From Bryum argenteum (lineage: Eukaryota > Streptophyta > Bryopsida > Bryales > Bryaceae), in contig CM073322.1 in assembly GCA_037043015.1 (NCBI GenBank), positions 33,439,364 through 33,503,363 of the forward strand: a DNA stretch of 64,000 bases. The letters are read 5' to 3'. Made by a program: the position numbers and the translations under genes. Below the pieces are notes generated by a model. It was not told the origin of the DNA, searched no databases, and saw nothing but the letters and a program-made list of their open reading frames with translations. Of the stretch, positions 8,409 through 42,299 are shown one piece after another. The stretch's first letter is position 1. Each line of letters opens with the position of its first letter.

Positions 8409-9223
<815 letters not shown>

Positions 9224-27020: not shown

Positions 27021-27040
27021 CCCCTTTACAGCCAAAGAGG

Positions 27041-27196
27041 TGGATCCGGTTGGGGAGGCCCGATTGGGGGCTGGAGCCTGGCCAAATGCGGCCCACCTTC
27101 CGGCCAGCCCAAGAGGCTGGATCCGGTTGGGGAGGCCCGATTGGGGGCTGGAGCCTGGCCAAATGCGGCCCACCTTCCGGCCATCCCCACAGCATG
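27041..27196. repeat. two 77-bp GC-rich tandem units at the MULE target
   Basis: TGGATCCGGTTGGGGAGGCC begins at 27041 and again at 27118 (period 77). Both units continue through TGGCCAAATGCGGCCCACC. A further partial unit (GGCCAAATGCGGCCCACC) lies just beyond the other end of the MULE at 42237-42254, so the MULE sits inside this array. Confidence 0.9.
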
Positions 27197-27205
27197 TGTA
27201 AAGTG

Positions 27206-27508
27206 GGAGAAGGCTAAATCCCAGAGCGGGGCACCCCATGATCTCCCGCGCGCCAGCCAAGCGATTCTGCGGTTTAGTTACCGCCGCCACTTTCGATTAC
27301 CCCTCGGTAGAATCGGACTCGCCCGCCCGAGACATCTGCGCCCGCGAAAAACGCTCGCCCCGCATGCCACGATGCGCCACCACGCCCCCATGCCATCCAC
27401 ATCCCCCATGCCATCCACGCGCTTATGTCACAGATTGGAGGGGCTAGGTTTAGATTCTGTGTCACAATAATTCCTAAACCAATAAGATATTGGCGGTTTT
27501 AGGTTTAA
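27206..27508 (+). repeat. left TIR of the MULE (~303 bp)
   Basis: Pairs with 41921-42222. Conserved landmarks include CGCATGCCACGATGCGCCAC, CCATGCCATCCAC repeats and TAAACCAATAAGATATTGGC. Homology stops just after GGCGGTTTTAGGTTTA. GC-rich in its outer 250 bp. Confidence 0.9.
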
Positions 27509-28050
27509 ATTCTGTGTCACAACTTTCGAGCCGGCTTTAGATCTAAATCCAATGTCACAGAAGTACACAGTCTCGTAGTGTTTTTGGGTATTGCCAACGA
27601 TTTCGGGCGACTAGAGGGCACAATTATATTCAATTCCACCGCTACATCTCGGTTTAAGGTTTTGCTCTAAAGCTATTGCACCAAACCGGAGACTGCTCCA
27701 TCCTTCCAGAGTATCTCCAACGATATCGGCCGTGGACTATGTACTCTTGCATCGAACCGGAAACCGCTTTCAATTGCATTCAAAACCAATAACTATTCCC
27801 ATTGTTTGTGGAGATCCTCTCCTACGCACTTACAGACCAAATCAGTGGTCGTCGAATCTACTCTCTTCGAATACGACGCCCGATTCTCGATATACTCCCC
27901 CGCTGCGGCCTGGTGAGCTGAAATTCTTACTCGATGCACTCACTTCAGAGTCATGATGAGCTGAAATTCTTACTCGTTGCATTCACGTGAGTGACACATG
28001 TTTCAATAGATTGAGGATCTGTGTTGGGTGATGCAGTCGTTTTTTCCGTC

Positions 28051-31000
28051 ATGTTCGACGTAGTCGATGCAATGGTTTCTCAAACCCCCCATTCTGCTCC
28101 AGTGGTGCACTCACTTGAGAGTCCTGTCCGAGGCAAGCTCAGTAGTGCTGAGGCTAAGATTCTGGCTCACATCCAATCGATGGTCCAACATCCCAAAGAG
28201 GGTCCATTTGGGGTGACTAATCTCCAATGGAACAAGGAGCATCGGGCACGTCGTGGGAAACATGGTAAGGATCACGAAGTTCGATATTGTTATGTGCCTG
28301 CAAAGAGGATAGAAGATTTCATCGTTGGAGTTCAAAACGGTAGCGAGGGGACACAATGCGTTTACCGCGAGACCAAGGAGAACCACAAGCGCCCTGAGGA
28401 TGCAAGGGAGGGCGCTCGCACATCGTTGTATTTTTCAAGGTCAGGAAACTTCGGTTCATGGATCACTTTGATATTTTATAAGTAGAGTCGTTGTATCAGA
28501 AAAATGGGTCTATGTCTTACAACACAACAGTATTTCACTGTGATCAATAATGCGTGACAATTATAAGGTAAGGATGACACAAGTCACCCTCTTTAGGATT
28601 ACCTCTGATTTGGCCGGACAGTATTAGTTTTTCGAAGTAATTTCAGGAATTCCTTACACTGTCCTTGTTCATGCGTTGTTTACTGATGAAAATGATAAGA
28701 ACTAAAATGCTTTGAACATTGTTCATCGTCATGGTTTACTAATACCTGAAATGTTATTATGTCTCGCAGGTGGCATTGCGAATATGGTCCACAAGACTAC
28801 TCCGGTACTGTTAAAACCATCACACCGGATCTCCTCCCCAGGGCTAGAAAGAAATTGATCATTGCGAAGGTGAGTTCTGTGTCACAGGGGACACCTCACG
28901 AGACGTCTCCCCGCCAAGCGAAGCGGGTTGGACGAAAAGCCCCGCGGAAATTCTTGCCTAAACCACGCCCACCACCGAACAACATCGATTGCAACACAGT
29001 CCCTGCGTGTGTGACTCATGTACATCCTCCGAAACCATCGCGTAGGAGAGTTTTGAAAAATCTTTGCAAATGGGAGTGTTGTTGATGGACCTCTTGTGAC
29101 CAAAAAAATTAATTCGCAAGAAACCCTGGTGGGTTCTTAATGATTCCCCGTATCACGCATACCTCACTTGTCTGCGTTATTCTCCTTCTTGGGTGAAGCC
29201 CGATGTGGATCATTGTCAAAGAGGATCGGTAGAGAATGGGGAATGTGTCATTCATCTTGATGAGATGGGTTTAGACATCATCGAGCCTATTCCCGATCTT
29301 AACGAGGAGCTGCGTTCTCTAATTCCGCGGAGTTTGGTAATGGTAAGAATGCCTACAATTTTTCTCATCTTCACATACAAATACTGAGTTGGTTCTCGTG
29401 GTATTACATCATAACCAAGACATTTCGGATTCTCGATAATACAATGTGTCACCGTAACATTGTCACTCTCACATTATGAGTGCCCCGGTTATATGTAGGT
29501 GCCACATTCGGCGTTCCTCAAATGCTCGGTGTCACTTCGCTCCCCACACCGCCACCTCGTCTAACAATGAGTCAAACGCAGTATTTTCATCTCACCGAAT
29601 GTCACAACCTCTCGTTATATCGTTCTATGGAGTGTTGCATCGCGCGTGTGTTGGTGTTACAAAGTGGATACAGTACGCTGATTGGTTCCTAAATCGATTC
29701 CGGATACTACATCCGAATCTCCCACTGTCACACGCTGCGAAGGTACTGTACCTATGGGCTCTGTGGGTCAAGACAAGGGACTCGAGGAAGAAGTGGGGCA
29801 TGTCTATAAAGCGGGGATGTCGAGGCTCGGTTCACGGTTAAGATCCTTTTACATGCACCGCATTCTCTTGAGTTGTGTGTCCTTCAAGATCGGCATGTGA
29901 ACAATCATGGTTTGGTGGTTCACGGTGGAATGAAGGTTGGTGACCGTGGAGCGTTATCGGCTCACTTATCGCCGATGATAATCGATTTCATAGATCATTG
30001 CTTGCGTGAGAACTACACTGTTCACCAGATAATGAAGAAACATCTTAAGTTCTTAAGCTCTTGGGAAGCAGATGGGAAGGTTATCACTCGTGACATTCTT
30101 ATTAGCCCGAAGGACATTCGAAACATTGCACGGAAGCATGCCAAGGAGACGTGGATGTTGCATTCAAATGACGCTCGAGTGTGTACGCATGTGGGTCCAA
30201 AAAAACATGGACAAGGTCTTCCATTACAGTGAGACGGATTTGTCTAATCCAGAGGCTGTGTAGGGCAGCTTGACGGGAGTCAACATTCCGTTTACCATTG
30301 GTATACAAACTCCGTGGCAGAAAGAGATGATGGTTAAGTATGGTCACGGAGGTGGTGTGTCCATAGACGCCACATTCGGGACAAATGAGAAAAAGGTACG
30401 TAGTCATCGTGCCTTGGATGCTATCATTCCTCAGTGTCATCTGTTGTGACTAGGATGTGGTTGCATTCTGCTTTTGACTTGATAACTCGATCTTGCGTCC
30501 ATTTGTAGGTAGCTTTACTCCAAAGTTATCGTTATAGAAATACGTTTATCTTACTTACCTTTCATGTATCGGTCTTAGATTGTGTGAGTGTTACACTTTG
30601 CTAATGCATATCCTTGTTTCCTCGTAGTTCCCCTTGTACACAATCATGGTTTTTGACGAGTGGCAGCAAGGGATTCCGGTGGCTTGGATACTCACGTCTA
30701 GGTGTGCTAAGACGGACCTTACTCCATGGATGCGTGCCGTGAATGTCCGGATGAGGACTGCTAATCCCACTTGGGAGCCTTCTGCATTCATCGTAGATTG
30801 CGCTCAGGGCGAGATCAACGCTTTAAAGTTAGTTGACCACATGAGGTGGTTCTGAATTTGTCATCTTTTTATTGCTGATTAGAGTCACATATCGTATTTG
30901 CCACTGACACCGAGTGATATGTGTTGTGTACAGTATGATCTGGCCCATGGTCCCAATATTCCTATGCCTTTGGCATGTCCGGCGTGCTTGGCAAAAACAT

Positions 31001-32075
31001 TCGTGTTACAAAATCAAGGATGCGCACACACGTGCTGCAGTTTTACGTGACATTGGTCAAATGATGTATGACCCTACCTCGCCATCAGGACCCGACTCCC
31101 AAACCTGGGCAGCTACAAGGATTGACGACCTTAGTCGCAAGTATCCCATGGAGGTCGATTTCTGGGAGTACAAGAAGGTCCAGTGGTTGAAGAAGGTCCA
31201 CATGTGGGTGGTAGGGTACAGAAACTTACCTTATGCCGGCCAAGACACTAATGCGGCTATAGAAGGGTATCACGGATTTCTGAAATCTGTGCTTAAGTCC
31301 GAAAGAACTCGGATGGTTGGTCGCCGCGTCGATTGGAGTATCACCACTCTCACGGAGGATGTCCACGACCATTTCTGGTATAAGCGATTGCGAAAAGAGA
31401 TGGGTTTCGTGGACAACAAGAAAATGCAGGATGTTGTCGTATCTGCGCTTCTGAGGGCACGCAACATTCCCGACTCCGATGTCTCTCTGGATCAATTCCA
31501 GGAACTATGCACTTGTAACATCACAGAGCAATCGTGACACTCGGTATGTGGTTCATAATCCCGGAGAAGAGTGGGCTGGTTGCAATTGCATGTGGGCTCA
31601 GCGAGGTAACATTTGCAAGCATGTGGTAAAGGTTTTGTTGATGATACGCCCCGATGTTGCGGAAGGAACAATTGCCAGATTTTGCGGTCGCCGCCAGCGG
31701 GTAATGCCCAAGGAGGTATGGGTCGTGTGTTACTCACCGTGACGGATGACGATCAAAGATGCCCTGTTCCATCCCCGGTTTCCACTCCGAAGCAGACTCG
31801 AGTGAGGAGGAATCATGCTGTCCCGATGTAGCCGAATCACTCCGCAGCTGATTGTTTCATTGCACGATGAGGTCACTGGGAACCCCGTGTTGATGGAGCA
31901 TCTGGTGGCCGACCTAAACCAGGTTGTTGGTCGCATACGCGCACTCAAGGTGGAGATTCGGCATGGCACAGTACATCCTATGGTTGCCTCTCCAGTACTA
32001 CGCGTTGTGGAAGACGGCCGTAACTTCTTCTTCTTCAAGGCAAGGATTTCCTGGAACGGAGACGAAAGTCTGTAG
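28051..32075 (+). pseudogene. mudrA-like: MuDR/MULE transposase with SWIM zinc finger, decayed
   Basis: Exon 28051-28439 splices in phase to 28770 (SRWHCEYGPQDY). After a stretch with frame changes (about 28870-29860) come SPMIIDFIDHCLRENYTVHQ and ITRDILISPKDIRNIARKHA. The DDE core has the Asp at 30366-30368 (SIDATFGTNEKK), an intron 30396-30627 (phase 0), FPLYTIMVFDEWQQGIPVAW, the Asp at 30796-30798 (FIVDCAQGEINAL), an intron from 30838, FLCLWHVRRAWQK, and the Glu at 31262-31264 (NAAIEGYHGFLKS). A SWIM motif CNCMWAQRGNICKHVVK (31581-31631) follows, then a C-terminal tail to 32075. Defects include a one-base frame change near 30175, TAG at 30261 after NPEAV, and a frame change at the second intron. 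The TIR-binding region would lie N-terminal. DDE and SWIM residues survive, so decay is recent or moderate. Confidence 0.85.
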
Positions 32076-33250
32076 TTAGGAGTTTGTGATTGCCGGTTTT
32101 TTGACCGTAACTGTGACATTGTTGTTCTCCGTAATACCAAGACGGTCCAATTTTTGATTGGTGCAATTATACAAAGTGAGATGTAATGATGATATTAAAA
32201 AAAAATTATCATGCACACTACTGAAACTGTACAATATTTGCTAAGTCAGCGTGTTTGAGTGAACGTCCAATAGTAAGTCTATGATCGGCAATACTGTTGA
32301 ACCATATGTTGGTTCGATTTTCGGTGTCCATTATTTGAAAAGTCATCAGATTATAATCAAAGATGGGTTTGAATTCAAGGAGAGATGAACGTTACCTCGA
32401 GAGATGGAATGCATGACGCTTGGTAGGTAGAATGGGATTACAGAAAGATGCATTCTTCGTGAAAGGGTTGATCGGAGGAATGGTTTCAAGGTATAACTCA
32501 GTAAAAAATCATGATCACTACAAAAAATAGAAGTTCTCGAATAAACGTTACATATGCATTTGGGGTGCTTAAAATCAAAAAAATAACGTTGGTTTCTGTA
32601 CCGCTTTGTACGTGACACAATGTTTTTTAACGGCTGTTTAGAAATATTTACCTCTTACAGATATATTTTTGAACCGTAGCTCAAAAAAAATGATACTTAA
32701 TTGTGGGGACAAACGGCCTGCGTGCTTAACAGCTTCAAACATAGCATGATGTGTTAGGTTATATACAACAAAAGTTTAGATTCAAAAAGTGTGTCACGTA
32801 AGACAACCTTATACAATCCATGTTAATATACAATTATTTCTAGGGCGAAAGCATACTAGGGTGAGTGCACTTTCGGCTAAGAAAAAGTACTAAAATATTA
32901 CATAACACCAAAGTTTTAGACAATTAATTGACAATTAACACGTAATTCGTTGTAATGGGAATATTCAGATTGTCAAATTGAGATTTAGTTTAGCCAAATG
33001 TACTGTGTGGGTACATTTAGCTCCACTCCACCTAAACCCACATTTCTCAAAATTAGTAGATAATACCGTTATAATGAATTACGTGGTAATTAATCAATCC
33101 AATGTGAACTTTTTATGCAATTTGACCATTTGCACTCAAAAACTCTAGTTTTGAGGGACTTCACAAATTTAATGTAGGATTTTTATTTTATTTTTTATTT
33201 TATTTTTTTGGGGTAAGGTTTTTAATTAGGACTTTTTTTCATACGTAGAT
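32076..33250. other. intergenic part of the MULE between the convergent genes
   Basis: AT-rich with no gene. It carries GTGTCAC-type words at 32612-32619 and 32790-32797. Probable 3' flank of the transposase gene. Confidence 0.4.
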
Positions 33251-33600
33251 ATTTGATGTGATTCACCATTGCAAGGCTATTATTTGAGTAAAGAAATTGT
33301 TTTGATGAGGTTTCTGGATTTTAGAGCCATACTGAGATTAAGGTGATTAACTTTCTAGTTGGGGGTATTTTCATTGTAGTAGCTTTGTTGGTAATATTTC
33401 CACTCTAAAGTAAAAATGTTGTTATTTTGTAGTTTGTTGAGTACTAATATGTTCCATTCTCGAAACCATGAGGCCTCATGATCCAAATTTTGGTCCACAT
33501 GACCTATAATAAGTTAACTACAAGATTGTATGGCTGAGATTTAAGTAGCTTGCCTTCATTTTCATTTATGAATTTTCTTTTAAACATTTTGTTTCTACTT
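33251..33600 (-). repeat. degenerate TTAA-family fragment inside the MULE
   Basis: CAAGGCTATTATTTGAG, AACTTTCTAGTTG, TTTGGTCCACATGACCTA and GGCTGAGATTTAAGTAGCTT correspond in order to 21490-21780 of copy 2. No TTAA ends. Confidence 0.6.
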
Positions 33601-33999
33601 TCTATGCTTGGGACCCCGTTGGGCATTCAAGGGTGAATGTTATTAATGCAAGTTATTAGGTAAAGTTCATAGTTGCCATTCTTGATGAAAGTACCACCTA
33701 AACATTTAAAAAATTGGATGAATCCCTAACTTATGATTTAGTCATAATTCAAACCTATCCTACTTTGAGATAATATTCATGGTTGATCCTCAGAAACGAC
33801 AATGGTGCTCGTCACAACCTTGTCCACCATCGAAGTTGACAAACCCTATAAGGTCATCTTTGATGTAAATTCTCTGTTTGAGAGACAAGAGAACTGCATA
33901 AAGTGTATATTCCGATTTTTCCAGACGGCCTCCCTCACTCTCCGGCTCCGAACCGTCTTTATTAATTTCCGTAGCGGCTTTACTGTGTCTCGCTAGTTT

Positions 34000-34482
34000 T
34001 TGAACGAGCCGCCACTTGAACCTCGCACCGCCTGGGATGCTAATACCCCACCTCCTTTGTCGATTCCTAAAACAATGAAGTTTCTTCCTTCAAAGAACTG
34101 CCGTTGACCATTTAATGCGATCGGAATTGCATTTAGATCATTTAGGTGGTTTCCATCGCTGAAAACAGGACAATGTAAAGAGTACATGTGGTCGGAGACT
34201 ATAGACGCCACACCCTTCCGTTGTGAATCGCTCCCGCCAACTAAGAAGCAATCGATTTTAAGGATGTCACCAAAGAAGTAATATAGCTTTGCCTTCAGGC
34301 AATGATGAAGGCGCCCACGCAATATGATGGTAAGACGAAGGCGTGGAGTTCTCGACACCGAGATTTTACTACCAATTTCCAACCCAAAGTTTGTGAGCTC
34401 ATAACTTTGACCTGGGAACTAGACCACGCAGACACATCCCACAAAAGGATAACTCCTTGATTATCCACAGAAGCGGCAATAT
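34000..34482 (-). pseudogene. possible captured host fragment with a WD40-like repeat
   Basis: The minus strand at 34425-34482 reads NIAASVDNQGVILLWDVSAW, matching the end of a WD40 repeat (..D..G.I.LWD). Below it, an open frame (33993-34382) contains GGSDSQRKGVASIVSDHM and VLGIDKGGGVLAS. The frames do not join cleanly. Transduplication of host exons is common in MULEs. The family is uncertain. Confidence 0.35.
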
Positions 34483-34533
34483 TCATATTCATATTCATAT
34501 TCATATTCATATTCATTAGTATTCATATTCATT
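34480..34533. repeat. (ATTCAT)n microsatellite
   Basis: About eight copies of ATATTC/ATTCAT with one interruption (TTAGTA). Confidence 0.95.
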
Positions 34534-34741
34534 CACACCACAGCCGTCTTAAGTGTTAATTATGTGAAGTTTTCAAATCTCAGCATGTAATCAAGGAGGA
34601 ATATCTCATTAACTGAGTGCCACACACACCTTGAGTTTGTTTCAAGAAGAAGCAAAGATGTAAAATGAATATATAAGTTGTCACAGTTGTGACACAACAT
34701 CTAAAGCTACATCGCCGGACCATCTGTACTAGTATATTGGT

Positions 34742-37700
34742 TCACGAATCGAATCCATCCAATTCTTCTTCTTCGGCAGGAGCAGACTCTAGAATCACGC
34801 AGTGGTCTTCCTCGTCGAGATCGCTTCCTTTGTTTTCGACGAGCGCATTATGCAAAACGGTGCCTTGAACCGTCTGTCTCTCTTCACCGAGTCCAATTCA
34901 TTGCGAATCAGCAGGAGGATCTGTTTGTTCATCATCGACGGATCAAAGGAGCGCAGATACTGCGGGACAAGCTGCACCCCGGGTTCTGAAGCTATTCCCA
35001 CTCCAAACTGTCCAAGGCACACGGTGGTACATGTTAAACTCCCGGACAGAGTATAGACAACACGTGACAGTACGTGACACAATGTTAAACTCTGGGACAG
35101 CACGTGACACAACACCACGTCAAATTTGGGCGACATTGATTTACATATTCAGCATACATAAACATACCACCATAAATCATTGAGTACTTATGAACTTACC
35201 TTAAGGTACAGAACAATGTTACGGATAGCGAGATGGCCACATTCGTAACCACCGTCTCGCTTGCCAGGCGCCAACACCGATCACCTCGGTGCGGCATGAC
35301 GGCATTCCTCCGAGACGCCGCCAAGCCATGTACACCGCAAGAAGCGAACTGACAGCCGATCTGCAGGGGCGGTGGAACGTTCCGTTGCGAGAGTCCATAT
35401 GCAATACCTGCCGCTCTCGAAATACAAGCACCGACCAATGATCTTCAAATATCCACGGAAGTATTAATTCCTTAACCTCCTCGATTCCCACTCCAGTCGG
35501 AGGAGTGAGCCAGGTTTGTCCCAATCGTTCCTCATTCTTGCCATTTTGGAAGGACTCACAAGCCCACGAGCTAACCAAAAGAACACTCCGCCGACGTTCC
35601 TCCTCCGCTTGCATGTACAAGCGTGACAGTACGAAGTCGACAATGTCGATTCCGAGTCGCCCCCGTTCATCCTTCAACTTACGAATCATCTTGTTGGTGA
35701 TGATTAATTCCTTCCCGAAGTGGTTGAAAATAATCGTCTGCAAGGCTGATGCGGTGGTTTCCACTGTCCCCTTGAATGACCTTCAAGACTTCATCAATTC
35801 CCAGCTCCTTGTAAACCCCAGGAATGTCGTAGTCCACGAAATATGATGCATCGGCAATATAACAATCTTCAGTGGCAGTGGGAACTACGACCGGGACTAA
35901 CGAGTCGTTTCGGGCGACCTGAGGAGGAAGTGCATCAGACTCTTGCTCGTCTTGAAATTGCTCCTCTAACTTCTTCCGGCAGGAATCGAAGTCTTCATCC
36001 AACCGTAGCACATGTTCCACCGTACTTGGCGTGTTCTTAATGGGAGTCTCCTGTGTGGGATCCAACCACTGAGATAAGCTGACGTCACCCAACTTTGTAG
36101 ACACGACCGGCACATCCTGCACCCCTCTGAAGACCTGTGTCACGGTGACGACTGGTTCTCCCTCTTGCGTCGGAAACTTATCCTGCAGTGCCTGGCGTAC
36201 ATCAGTGCAAATAATGCCCCCCCCTCCCTGATTCGGAGGAGGACCCACATCTTCGTGAGGATCACCCCCAGAAACGGCACAGCCCACGACATCCCCTGTT
36301 TTGGGCGCTCCAGAAGACTCCAGTCCTGAGTCACATAGAAAGCACCGCAAAACAATTACAATATGTCATACCTATGAAACTCAACGTATTTCTTCAGATT
36401 TAGTCGCGCATGGGGCATCAGACTTAAAAGGTACCTGATTCCTCGGCTCTAGGTGACTTGGTCACGATGGTAACCGTTGCCGCGTCCGATTCTAAGACTG
36501 ATCGTGACACAGGCGGACTGCCCTCACCCCCTGCCGATGTAAGAGCAAGGGGGTGCGAAACTGCATCTCCAAGGATGTTGTCGACACTACCGATGTCGTT
36601 TCGAACTACCGTTGTCCACCAATTCTCATCATCAGCCTTGATGGCAGCTGGGAGCCCTCGATACAATTTCGAGACGTCGGTAAAGAGGTTCACCACCCGA
36701 GTGCTCCACGCCGGAGTCTGGCCGGTCGCTGTGAACATGAGGTCCCGATCTTCGCGAACCCGCATAACATCTGACCAGATATGATGATGTTTTCGCCAAT
36801 CATCAATGCATGTGGTGGTCCAAGCCTCTTGGAAACGGTGTTGGTATCTAGCCGCAAAATCTTGGAGTCCCCGGAACTGCACCCGATGAACCAAGTCCAT
36901 CAGTGACCGTATGATGTCGGAGCCGTTCCCCTCCTTGATTCTATCAATTTGGGCTTGCACACTTTCTGCCAGGGTGTCACGGTCGTCACAGGAGAAGTCA
37001 GCGAACAAGCTGTCTCCTCGTTGCAGAAGATCGTGGAGGGCCTTCCACAGGGACCAGGAACGCCTTTCTACCTCATAACTAATAACTTTGGCTGTCAACC
37101 CATAATCCGGGCACGTGACACGTCGGTGCGCCCCGTAACTATTATACCAATCAATTTTGAACACCAATAGAAGAGGTGGTGGGGTCAATCGTTTCGCTCT
37201 CGTGTGTATGATCCGCAACCGAACTGTCTCAGAATCTGAATCTGCACACACGCCATTGCACAAAATATTAATGAATCCCCCTATCACAGTACAACAAAAG
37301 GCCACGTATAAATGAGACTACATCCCAAAGCCACAATGCAAACTGGATTGGTGTCACTCACTATTATGTACCCAAGGCATGGGTGGCAAGGCGTTGAGGA
37401 TACACGCTGCGACCAACACCTGTCTGAGGGACACCACTCCCACACGATCCGCTCGAGGAGGCGGCCATTCTTCTGCCGAAACTGCAGCCTTGCGAGTGCC
37501 AAGGCGGAGTCTTTCTCTGCTTGTATTGTGTCACGATCCCTAGTCTTATCTTCTTCGAAGCGTGAGTAGTCCATGTTCCACTTCAGATATGCGCAGACGG
37601 CATCAAGCTCAGGATACGATTCTCCGGAACACCTGCTGTAGACGAGGGATTCCAATGCGTTGGTAATGGAATCTCGCTGTGACTTAAGCTCCTCTCTCAG

Positions 37701-40178
37701 ATTCTTGTCATTCTGTGACACCACATACAAAAAATCCGGTATGTTAGGACAAGAACCCATTTGGAACCAATTATGTAATCAGATTATGTAAGACATGAAG
37801 TAAGTGAGGATCACCCACCTTCTTGAATGTCCACCAGAACACGCACTCCTGGAGCTGCTGTCGGAACACATCCGTGTTGTATGACTCCTCCCAAGCGCGT
37901 CGAAACTCTTCGACAGATGGGTAATCCCACTTCCACGGCAGTGCCACGTCTGCTTCGATGCTTCGCAAGCACCACAAGTCTGGCATGGGAGGTTGTCGTG
38001 GCGGAACACGAGAAGGCAATTTGTTTACTTTTGCCTCAAATTTACACTTACAAGCTGCGACCCACTGTTCTTCAGCCTGTTCCATATGCCGGCGCCTCTT
38101 CTCGCAGTATGTCACGCAGTGTGGGTTGAAATCGAATGGGAGGGTGGCTTCACCCTTCCCCGTAATCCAAAACTTCACCATGTCGGGGGTAGAAGCCGTC
38201 GCTAAGCTCCACATTAGCACTTTCGCTTTAAGCTTAGTTGTACCTACTACAGGCGGTTCCGAGTGATTCATCATCTTCGCGACACCGGCAGCGAATTCAT
38301 CAACCACTGGAGCCGATGCTGGTACTTGAATGGGAAGGACTCCCGCTGGCGCCGACTCCTCCACAGCCGTATTCCCATGAACCTCCAAATCACGACCATC
38401 CTGTGTCACGGCATCCTCCACAGACGCCCCTACTGCATTATCCAAAACTGCACATTGTCCTTTCTCTTGTGCCGCAGATTTCAATTTCTCCTCCACCACT
38501 TCACCTGCAGATGCTGAAATGTCGACGGCTAACGGTGGTGCCTCTTGCATGGAGGGTAGTTCCGCCTCTTGTGCCACCGACGATGCATGCTCTTGGGGCA
38601 GTGATGACTGCGGGCATCCCGTGAAATCCAGCTGACGTCCTCTTGAGCTCAAGGATTTAGGCTGTAAGAAACAGGTGAGCCGGATTAGTTGTCTGATATG
38701 GCACTGAGAGGCGGCAGAGTAAGGAGTGTATCTTACCACGTTGGATTTCCTGGAACGCCAAGGTGAGAAGAGAAAGCGCGTGCCTCTAGGTGGGAGATCT
38801 TCCTCATGTGACAATCCTCGTGGCTCGGCTGACGGGACTTCTTCACGAACATGAGTCTCTTCATTCACCTCACTCGCGTTGGCTAGCTCATCTGGATCGC
38901 CGACTGAGGGTGCCTGCTGCGCGGGTGGATGGGATTGATCGAAGGCTGGAGGTTCGTGCTGCAAAGAGGGAGGGGAGTGTTGAGAGGGTGGAGGATCGTG
39001 CCGGGAGGGTGGAGGAGAGTGGTGGGAGGGTGGATGGGACTGCTGGGCAGCAGGAGGGAGTGCGGAGAGGGCCCTGCCGAGTGGAGTTCCTCTCTGAGTG
39101 TCACAGCACCTGCAGGAACAAGTAACTTAGAGGGTGGTGTAGACATGGGATTCAAAAACATACATAATATTCGGAGCTTACCAGCGATGGGCGGTATGCT
39201 CTGCGAAGGTGCACCCAAGTCTTCTACGAGTACTGCGTCTACAGCAAATTTAATGCGTTTTCTCTTCGTTTTTTTGCTCGGACGCGGAGAGGAAGGATCC
39301 TCCTTACTGCGTCATCGCGCTTGATGTACGAAGGGAATCGGACGTTGATGCACGCTTCACGTTCGATGAAATCTGCGCCCGATAACACCCGGTTGTTTAC
39401 GATTCACCAAGGGTCTCCTCCACGCGATGCCTCTTCCCGCTCGGCTTCTTTAAAGACCTCCTCATCGAAGTCCTAGTCTTCGCCCCCCCCCCCAGCTCGT
39501 GAAATCACCTCCTCCTTCCGGGACCGCCGCAGTCTGTCTCTTCTTCTTAGATTTTGGCTCCTCCATCTCCTCGGATTCAGTGACGACTTCATCCATATCT
39601 GCAAATTTTTCCTTCCCTTTATTTTTCTTTGTCTTCTTCGTCGGTGCAGGCCCAATAATCAAAGCCGGGGTGATAGGCAAACCCTCACCGTGCTGCCCCC
39701 GAAAACCCTGTACCACGGCTTTCTTGCTCTTCTTCGTACGTACTGCAGGGAGAACCTCCTCCTTTTCTTGCACAATCGCCCCAATCGTGTCACGCTTAGA
39801 CTTGCCATGCTTGGCAAATCCCTCCACAATTTTCTCATGCCCTTGCTCGAAGTCAGGATATGGGTAGAGCGTGGCGAGCTCTCCATCCGCGGACTTCACA
39901 ACCGGGCATCCGCTCTCAAACCTGTGCGCGTTCAACATCATCTTGTTGGAGAAGTTGTTCCTACCGCAGTATACGCAGTAGAAACATCGACGTCTACTCC
40001 CGGGCTTGAGGTCCGCCTTTGAGTACTGTGCGAACTCCACGCACAAATCCTCATACAATTCCTTCGGGTATGTCACAGTATACGCTCTGTCATATATTTT
40101 GACAGGAGCGTCGACCATTTCTTGCTTCCCATCCATGGGGGCGGTTCGCTGGGATTCCTGTGCAGACCGCCAGGGCAT
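34742..40178 (-). pseudogene. MULE accessory gene: C2HC zinc finger, coiled coil and Ulp1/C48 protease
   Basis: A long multi-exon gene convergent with the transposase. The start ATG is at 40178. Residues 68-91 form C-x2-C-x13-H-x5-C (YCVYCGRNNFSNKMM..H..C), followed by Lys/Glu-rich linkers. Later exons run 38737-~39120 (Pro/His-rich), 37819-38661 (FWITGKGEATLPFDFNPHC, WDYPSVEEFRRAWEESYN), ~37420-37712 (NDKNLREELKSQRDS, coiled coil), 36435-37241 and ~35770-36325, all with GT-AG borders in phase. The last part is a Ulp1-like cysteine protease: His at 35438-35440 (DHWSVLVF), Asp at 35393-35395 (LHMDSRNG), Cys at 35239-35241 (GGYECGHLAIRNI), and an acidic tail ending at 34742. Ulp1-family enzymes cleave SUMO-like modifiers. 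Defects are a poly-C run at 39482-39493, TAG near 39475, and frame changes near 35775, 35265 and 34875. Confidence 0.75.
39906..39986 (-). other. C2HC zinc-finger coding segment of the accessory gene
   Basis: Cys68, Cys71, His85 and Cys91 of the 238-codon first exon, with Cys65 just before, embedded in a basic context (GSRRRCFYC before, HRFESGC after). It is the only nucleic-acid-binding-type motif I see in this protein and so a candidate for recognising element DNA. Confidence 0.6.
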
Positions 40179-41920
40179 TTTTCACAAATCAGTAGCTAAG
40201 CATGAAATACGGACTAAGAAGGGGATGAAACAACATTGTGATGGTATTAGTGGTACTGAAACAAAATCATACAAGTGGCACAAACGATAATTGTCACCCA
40301 CTACCTAAGTGATCCAGTAGCAGGTTGGAGAGTTCGGTCCGCAAGTTTCGCAAATGTCTTCACATCCACCTTCCGAAGCCTACAACAACAGAGCATACCA
40401 ACTCTAGTAATGGGTGAAAAGGGTTGAATGCAAATTCAACTTAATCTCAGAAACGTTAGAATATCATCAGAAATGATGAACACAAAGAATGGTTGCCAGG
40501 ATTGTGCAATAAGGTGTGCAGTACCAAAATTCAAGACCAGCAGGCAAGGCACCTTGCTTGTCAATTGTTGAGTCGTCACCACCATGCACAGCTGCTGTTG
40601 CATCAACGCCTAGCGCATCTGGAAGAGGAATCAAACCAAGAACTCAGCACTTTCTGTATGCTCTTCGTGGACAGAAATTCGAAGGCAAACTACGAACCGC
40701 AACAATGATTGCATGAAGCTTGGAATTTTTATTTACTGCCCTTACTGAGAAGGCAAAGATTAATGAAGTATCATACATTTGATCACTTCTCTAACAGGTG
40801 ATGAACTCACTAACAACTCCGCCATGACGCTCAGCTCAATCATATATACAAACCATGTACCTAAGAATATCGTGACACAGTCACTTATTCCTTACAAGAT
40901 ATGTACAAAACTACCGAGCACTGTGACATTCTAATCTTGATAGCGATGACGTAATGATGAAAAATACGGTAAGAACAACGCTCATCAACTATTTGAGAGG
41001 CTAAATGGCAGATGTACGAACCTCACGAGAGTTTAAACCCTAAACGAGAGATTTCTGCAACCCTATGGAGAGCCAGCACCTTAAACCGCCCCTCCGACGT
41101 TGTGGACGAATGCACGAGCAATCACACTGCGAAATTAATGGCGGGAAAAATTGATACTCGTGGGTCTATCGCCCCATGCGCGCCTCCTTGACCCGTCCGC
41201 ATTCGAAAGAGAATATCGGAATGTTGAAACGCCATTAATTTCGTCATTTTGTCTATCACCCCGCCTCACCACCGCTTCCGGTCAGCTTACAATCCTACAC
41301 TCTTGCTAACGGCCAAAAACAAGTTGAAGATACATTTTGAAAGACGAAATGAACATTGTGTAATCCTGCTATTGAGAACCACTACAAAAACGTGGAGGAG
41401 AGAAGGTGAGGAGGTTACCTCGGCGACAAGGTCGTTCCAAGCAAGTTCGAACATGCGGCTGATGGGTGAGCTGGTACCTGAGGAAACTACTGAACTGAAC
41501 CTCCTTCCGTTCGAATCACTCTCGCGAGTCTAACCGCGCGGGGGTGCGTCTCTCGTCTAAGCATTTAAAATGCACCTCCAATGCCATTAAGGTACAAAAT
41601 AAGGCCGTTTGTGACATCCTTACTCCCACCACGTCAAATTAGAGTACTGCAATCAAGTTGTCAAATCACATCATTTCAATGGGCAGAAAATATAATCAAA
41701 ATCTTGGATTCACACAAAACCACTCAAAACTCAGATTCAATTACGTGTGATTTAGATTTCGCATAATCGAGGTCACGTCATTAGTTATGGCTTCTTTAGT
41801 AACCGGCGATGGGGAGAAGCAAATTTGAATCTCTGTCTCAATTCCTGATTTCCGAAATAGTCGATTGAGCCCAAAACCGGATTCTGCACAATTGTGTCAC
41901 AAACATCGTACCGTGATATA
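40179..41920. other. 5' region of the accessory gene, inside the MULE
   Basis: Probably promoter and leader. On the minus strand 40323-40380 encodes LRKVDVKTFAKLADRTLQPA between AG and GT and could be an upstream exon, though its phase does not fit the ATG-containing exon simply. A telo-box-like AAACCCTAAACG is at about 41034-41045. GTGTCAC-type words occur at 40872 and 41893. Confidence 0.35.
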
Positions 41921-42222
41921 TCTAAACCTAAAACCGCCAATATCTTATTGGTTTAGGAATTATTGTGACACAGAATCTAAACCTAGCCCCTCCAATCTAT
42001 GACATAAGCGCGTGGATGGCATGGGGGATGTGGATGGCATGGGGGCGTGGTGGCGCATCGTGGCATGCGGGGCGAGCGTTTTTCGCGGGCGCAGTGTCTC
42101 GGGCGGGCAGGTCCAGTTATCGAGGGGTAACTGGAAAGTGGCGGCGGTAACTAAACCGCGCAACCGCGCTGGCGCGGGAGACCGCGTGGGGCTGCCCCAC
42201 TACAGGGGATTTAGCCTTCTCC
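41921..42222 (-). repeat. right TIR of the MULE (~302 bp)
   Basis: Inverted copy of the left TIR with moderate divergence near the outer end and higher identity over the inner 200 bp. Confidence 0.9.
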
Positions 42223-42299
42223 TGTAAAGTGAGCCCGGCCAAATGCGGCCCACCTTCCGGCCAGCCCCACAGCATGTGTAAAGTGGCTAAACTTCAACT

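Follow-up and report, generated by a model that had tools for sequence, protein, structure and literature searches.

A conserved 7-bp word dispersed over a Mutator-like element of the moss Bryum argenteum, and a candidate element-encoded reader

The window analysed here is a 64,000-nucleotide stretch of the Bryum argenteum genome (contig CM073322.1), and it carries a Mutator-like element (MULE) in which the 7-bp word GTGACAC, or its reverse complement GTGTCAC, was found 25 times. The enrichment of the word, its specificity to one MULE clade among the loci examined and its constraint over 7 bp were computed directly, as were the transposase gene and the protease fold encoded by the element. A constrained, clade-specific near-palindrome (GTGWCAC) which occurs on both strands, dense over coding and noncoding sequence and sparse in the flanks, resembles a set of dispersed protein-binding sites. 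We read the word as the recognition site of a DNA-binding protein that is likely made by the element itself, with the zinc-finger/Ulp1 protein of the element as the reader in a de-SUMOylation model, a reading which we put forward tentatively, at somewhat short of an even chance.

Enrichment of the word over the element

The words are distributed from 253 bp inside the left end of the MULE to 251 bp inside its right end, with 14 of them reading GTGTCAC and 11 reading GTGACAC.

27206-42222, no strand assigned: the MULE, 15,017 bp, recognised by its terminal inverted repeats (TIRs), a 9-bp target-site duplication and related copies
27459-41971, both strands: the 25 sites, starting at 27459, 27514, 27991, 28879, 29446, 29529, 31534, 32612, 32791, 34689, 35074, 35104, 36137, 36504, 36974, 37115, 37351, 37528, 37715, 38403, 39098, 39787, 40872, 41894 and 41965

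The remaining 48,983 bases of the window contain four words (at 8898, 20691, 52932 and 53116), the nearest of them 6.5 and 10.7 kb from the element. The longer form TGTGTCAC/GTGACACA was found at 17 of the sites in the MULE and at one of those outside. The original prediction had counted 25 words in the element, 17 of them extended, and about four outside, and our recount gave 25, 17 and 4; its site coordinates were right to within about 10 bases and not exact (the site placed at 29455 is really at 29446). Its claim that the word runs over the whole element on both strands also held, as ten sites were found inside open reading frames (14 ORF stretches, 6.7 kb) and 15 in the 8.3 kb outside them. 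A few sites are not fully independent: 27459 and 27514 are embedded in a common longer context, and 41965 mirrors 27459 in the opposite inverted repeat. The only tandem array that overlaps a site is the one at 34676-34694 (site 34689), and the site at 27991 touches a two-copy 43-bp repeat. Of the 44 GTGACA cores of the element, 37 have C or T immediately before them, and the base after the core is C in 25.

GTGACAC is the top over-represented 7-mer in the MULE, with 25 occurrences against 2.6 under an order-2 Markov model (P 2e-16). Dinucleotide shuffles of the element gave a mean of 2.45 words and a maximum of 9 (n=300), and the highest count reached by any 7-mer in 40 shuffles was 13. Many other words enriched to the same degree, which the original prediction had named as evidence against itself, were not found: once GTGACA was masked, the next 7-mer was GGTTTAG (11 against 1.2, P 7e-8), and simple repeats ranked after it. 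The whole genome contains 21,865 words in 258.8 Mb (19,463 for the reversed control word), which corresponds to 1.27 expected per 15 kb, and the density in the MULE is about 20 times that of its host. Among the first 100 genomic places listed, several pairs of GTGTCAC in the first 1.8 Mb of C1 have a spacing of 682-684 bp, pointing to another repeat family that holds the word twice.

The ten sites inside ORFs compare with a mean of 1.49 in shuffles that keep both the protein and the codon usage, and none of 2000 such shuffles reached ten. When the ORFs were read by hand, the sites were seen on both strands and in various reading frames; a repeated peptide is therefore no explanation and, together with the codon-preserving result, this origin was ruled out. 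CpG decay was ruled out as the source of the word as well, with GCAACAC occurring twice and GTAACAC four times as against 25.

Conservation, age and loss of the word

The DNA-level comparison covers copies within one genome, where 11 other copies are 95-98% identical to the window element in the transposase stretch, several are 84-92% identical and two are 70-73% identical. Searches of viral contigs, prokaryote genome contigs and plasmids found no relatives of the transposase. The transposase core gave at least 156 matches on many contigs, many of them open frames 40-50% identical, and further MULE families are thus present in the genome. The close copies are uninformative on constraint, as 81 of 95 sites are intact against 80.6 expected. 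We pooled six copies that are 84-90% identical where aligned (C1:38.9M, C8:10.4M, C4:3.36M, C8:9.12M, C4:4.40M and C8:6.4M), leaving out C4:7.39M (1/1 site intact) and the two deep relatives (1/2 and 0/1 aligned sites intact).

In this pool 28 of 33 site-by-copy cells are intact, compared with 233 of 518 for CpG-free words of matched composition (P 7e-6). Counted by site, 14 of 19 are intact in all covering copies whereas matched random positions give 6.4, and none of 5000 resamplings reached 14. The per-position profile places the constraint on the word itself, with changes at 8 of 231 positions within the 7 bp against 67 of 507 in the flanks (the 8 bases preceding and the 9 following the word; P 2e-5, or 1.9e-5 unrounded), and the base that follows the word varies freely (7/32). 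The word is under constraint over 7 bp, and the proposal that it would be kept while its flanks diverge was confirmed in these copies. The longest divergent copy, C1:38.9M, gave 15 of 18 sites intact on its own against 7.5 (P 4e-4); a second alignment put the figure at 13 of 16 (P 0.006). By conservation in this copy GTGACAC ranks 4th of 21 frequent 7-mers and GTGACA 21st of 88 frequent 6-mers. A test at third codon positions was underpowered (1/17 against 177/1136, P 0.5).

The two deep relatives, C1:8.27M and C5:15.3M, carry 5 and 7 sites per 10 kb respectively, that is 12 sites in 20 kb where 1.69 are expected (0.84 each, pooled P 2.4e-7). Most of these sites have positions and contexts of their own; one, at window position 31003, is common to both relatives and absent from the window, and one site of C1:8.27M is a possible homologue of window site 36137, judging by where it falls in a translated alignment. 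In another MULE family, whose transposase is 45-51% identical, four stretches have one homologous site per 3,080 bases, and the comparison region of the window element, 3.9 kb around the transposase, has five. Because the deep relatives are enriched at their own positions and the other family is sparse, the word characterises, among the loci examined, this MULE clade, in which some sites have arisen and others disappeared.

Family members without the motif were a further finding that the original prediction had said would speak against it. Close copies, the 84-90% identical copies and both deep relatives all have the word, whereas a sister lineage with hypermutated sequence (C7:18.7M, C7:225k and partly C8:357k) has lost most of its sites. 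In the transposase tree the first two of these group together with the close copies. Both are 93% identical to the window element when gaps are ignored, and 88% and 87% in the transposase stretch when gaps are included; 1/9 and 0/5 of their sites are intact (2/10 and 0/5 in another alignment). On the plus strand of C7:18.7M, T-to-C changes were found at 28 of 65 CTG and 32 of 111 GTG as against 2 of 145 ATG and 5 of 134 TTG, with CAG-to-CGG at 11 of 49; they are derived in the sister lineage at 71 of the 77 positions where the outgroup state is uniform. The same process has acted in C8:357k, chiefly on the opposite strand (CAG 16/31, CTG 7/30). The word contains GTG, a target of this T-to-C process at [C/G]TG, and is affected like the other such positions. 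Strand-asymmetric hypermutation of this kind was seen in the stretches L023, L057, L058 and L060 (all C7:18.7M), L025 (C7:225k) and L022 (C8:357k). We know of no process with such a signature, and none matching it was found among the papers listed by a keyword literature search.

The losses in this lineage could also be taken for a switch from GTGACA to GCGACA under a fast co-evolving code of the VANDAL type. In C7:18.7M GTGACA is the most-lost 6-mer (18 to 8) and GCGACA the most-gained (0 to 8), in C7:225k the counts go from 10 to 3 and from 0 to 5, and the further stretch L060 shows the same change at two of three sites. The same T-to-C change is nevertheless common outside the motif, where 28 of 107 plus-strand GTG and 24 of 62 CTG have changed with the motif excluded (6 of 7 CTG in L060), only 4 of 17 aligned cores on both strands show T to C, and all eight GCGACA of C7:18.7M lie on the plus strand, which is the strand favoured by the hypermutation. 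A coordinated switch is extremely improbable and was rejected, as general hypermutation from [C/G]TG to [C/G]CG accounts for the change. With [C/G]TG and CA[C/G] positions excluded, the motif of C7:18.7M still changed at 8 of 42 positions against 318 of 5533 (P 0.0026), four of the eight forming one cluster; the same test was not significant for C7:225k (P 0.17) and marginal for C8:357k (P 0.034), and no conclusion was drawn from the excess. The idea that the Ulp1 half of C7:18.7M is far more diverged than its transposase half was dropped, the difference being weak with gaps counted alike (79% against 88%, compared with 84% against 89% in C1:38.9M).

The hypermutation also bears on an explanation without any reader, in which the word is a mutational or compositional by-product. 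In some copies GTG is subject to strong context-dependent mutation, so that sequence bias does act on these elements, but this process destroys the word instead of creating it. Shuffles and codon-preserving nulls both fall short of the observed count. In the pooled copies, whose three largest members show mutation spectra that are symmetric between the strands, the constraint does not extend beyond 7 bp. The data disfavour a by-product, which we consider very unlikely.

Genes of the element and the candidate reader

The ends and genes of the MULE were annotated as follows.

27197-27205, no strand assigned: left target-site duplication TGTAAAGTG, 9 bp, read directly; it adjoins a 77-bp minisatellite
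28015-32075, plus strand: transposase gene of several exons with a MULE domain (PF10551) and a SWIM zinc finger, exon borders provisional
35200-35782, minus strand: the C-terminal domain encoded by the minus-strand gene, an Ulp1/SENP-like cysteine protease
35682-38667, minus strand: middle ORFs of the minus-strand gene, with 7 of the 25 word sites inside
39465-40181, minus strand: the first of the large ORFs in the minus-strand gene, from which a C2HC-like zinc-finger pattern (CVYCGRNNFSNKMMLNAHRFESGC) was read
42223-42231, no strand assigned: right target-site duplication TGTAAAGTG, read directly

The TIRs are about 300 bp long and, with the 9-bp duplication, agree with the TIRs and 9-11 bp target-site duplications of MULEs; the pair in the window is 91% alike and has 175-nt arms that are 99% complementary. 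The insertion place is the 77-bp minisatellite, a 56-nt piece of which is found on both flanks (27029-27206 and 42231-42286), and an (ATATTC)n microsatellite lies within the MULE at 34479-34533. The joined transposase exons match PF10551 with E 1.3e-13 (score 51.6, cut-off 27.6), as expected of a MULE, and the SWIM exon matches its profile with E 3.5e-4. The best named homologue of the transposase is from Ceratodon purpureus (57%).

The minus-strand gene encodes a SENP/Ulp1-fold protein with a C2HC-like exon, for which SUMO cleavage is predicted only. On a structural model assessed with VIA-align, its protease domain has the catalytic His-Asp-Gln-Cys of Ulp1/SENP enzymes (clan CE, C48) in a SENP fold, and counterparts of the zinc-finger-like exon were found in the related stretches L043, L051, L052 and L048. 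A zinc-finger-like exon and an Ulp1/SENP fold, the two parts of the protein that the original prediction had placed in the element, are thus both present.

In the model that we propose, a sequence-specific DNA-binding protein would recognise GTGACAC in this MULE clade, and selection would maintain a density of roughly 1 to 1.7 sites per kb throughout the element. The reader would most likely be encoded by the element, the best candidate being the minus-strand zinc-finger-like/SENP-Ulp1 protein. Such a protein could coat its own element through the dispersed sites and strip silencing proteins at the element of SUMO or a related modifier, so that the element would stay expressible and the host untouched. 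That the word is bound by a protein, which protein this is and what binding does are what we infer from these patterns.

Several observations weigh against this model. The 33 cells of the divergent pool represent 19 distinct sites, and GTGACA without the following C is kept in 16 of 26 cases against 28 of 33 with it (P 0.07), because of which the seventh base is not proven to matter. The zinc-finger-like exon has no Pfam family above cut-off in a profile scan and no homologues in a protein search, its counterpart in L048 is without the first two cysteines, and the protease reading frame is broken in the window copy. The sister copies C7:18.7M and C7:225k lost most sites and yet still left copies. 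The evidence does not discriminate an element-encoded reader from a host protein.

The word could instead be a binding site for the transposase (MURA-type) that serves transposition and was amplified past the ends to load or count transposase. The cores are dense just inside the ends (at the left end GTGACA starts at 27426, 27460, 27515 and 27553, and the right end has motifs at 41894 and 41965), the end-proximal sites are well conserved (27459 intact in 3/3 copies, 27514 in 4/4 and 41965 in 2/2) and the relatives that bear the word have a transposase. Most sites, however, lie kilobases from the ends and are spread evenly over ORFs and the remainder of the element, and we know of no MULE transposase that requires internal sites, so that we consider a transposase site unlikely. 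A transcription or chromatin factor of the host, recruited by the element for its expression, would suit the short 7-bp site, the dependence of the element on host transcription and the age of the word, which is old enough to be common to the deep relatives. Against such a factor, the sites are not clustered at promoters and are equally dense in late ORFs, the word is genome-wide only 1.12 times as frequent as its reversed control, and in this host the stretches examined from another MULE family do not have such density; we regard this explanation as quite unlikely.

The original prediction of a self-recognition code read by an element-encoded protein therefore stands as far as the word is concerned, which is element-wide, clade-specific among the loci examined and constrained over 7 bp, while the element-encoded reader is a putative one. 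A stronger version, in which the code is old and stable and an element-encoded zinc-finger/deSUMOylase reads GTGACAC throughout the element, also within coding sequence, and removes SUMO from silencing complexes, is possible but doubtful. If true, this anti-silencing system would stand apart from the VANC lineage and would account for the Ulp1 proteases in some MULEs. The word offers a concrete way to test why Ulp1-like proteases occur in some MULEs. Finding such a word in a moss, specific to one clade and measurably constrained over 7 bp, would suggest that anti-silencing codes are older or have arisen repeatedly, and that such codes could be stable and sit within coding sequence.

Comparison with known systems

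Kaonashi-type Ulp1-carrying MULEs combine a transposase gene and an Ulp1/C48-like protease gene in one element, as does the MULE described here. The gene in our element differs in adding a zinc-finger-like exon and the host is a moss; to our knowledge no dispersed motif has been described for the Kaonashi type. Like the words found here, the subterminal transposase-binding repeats of CACTA and hAT elements are numerous, short and present in either orientation close to the ends. These repeats are confined to the terminal regions, whereas the sites in the MULE fill 15 kb. Among the openly licensed literature entries listed, a keyword search found no report of such a word in a moss MULE.

Two reports describe sequence-specific transposon anti-silencing from Arabidopsis (Hosaka et al. 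2017, PMC5735166; Sasaki et al. 2023, PMC10398659), in which the VANC21 motif YAGTATTAY and the VANC6 motif AGTTGTCC/AGTTGTAC form noncoding tandem repeats and the motifs differ between related VANDAL families. The element studied here agrees with the VANC/VANDAL system in being a MULE with a short family-specific word in many internal copies (8-9 bp for VANC, 7 here), spread across the element, and in having an extra gene beside the transposase. It departs from the system so described in that 10 of its 25 sites lie in ORFs and one overlaps a short tandem array, and in that relatives 70-73% identical, with 27-30% diverged transposase DNA, have the same word. The minus-strand ORFs gave no match to DUF1985, a domain expected of VANC proteins, or to DUF287 at E up to 1 when scanned piecewise in this degraded copy. 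By analogy, the system appears VANC-like in its logic and is not classed as VANC.

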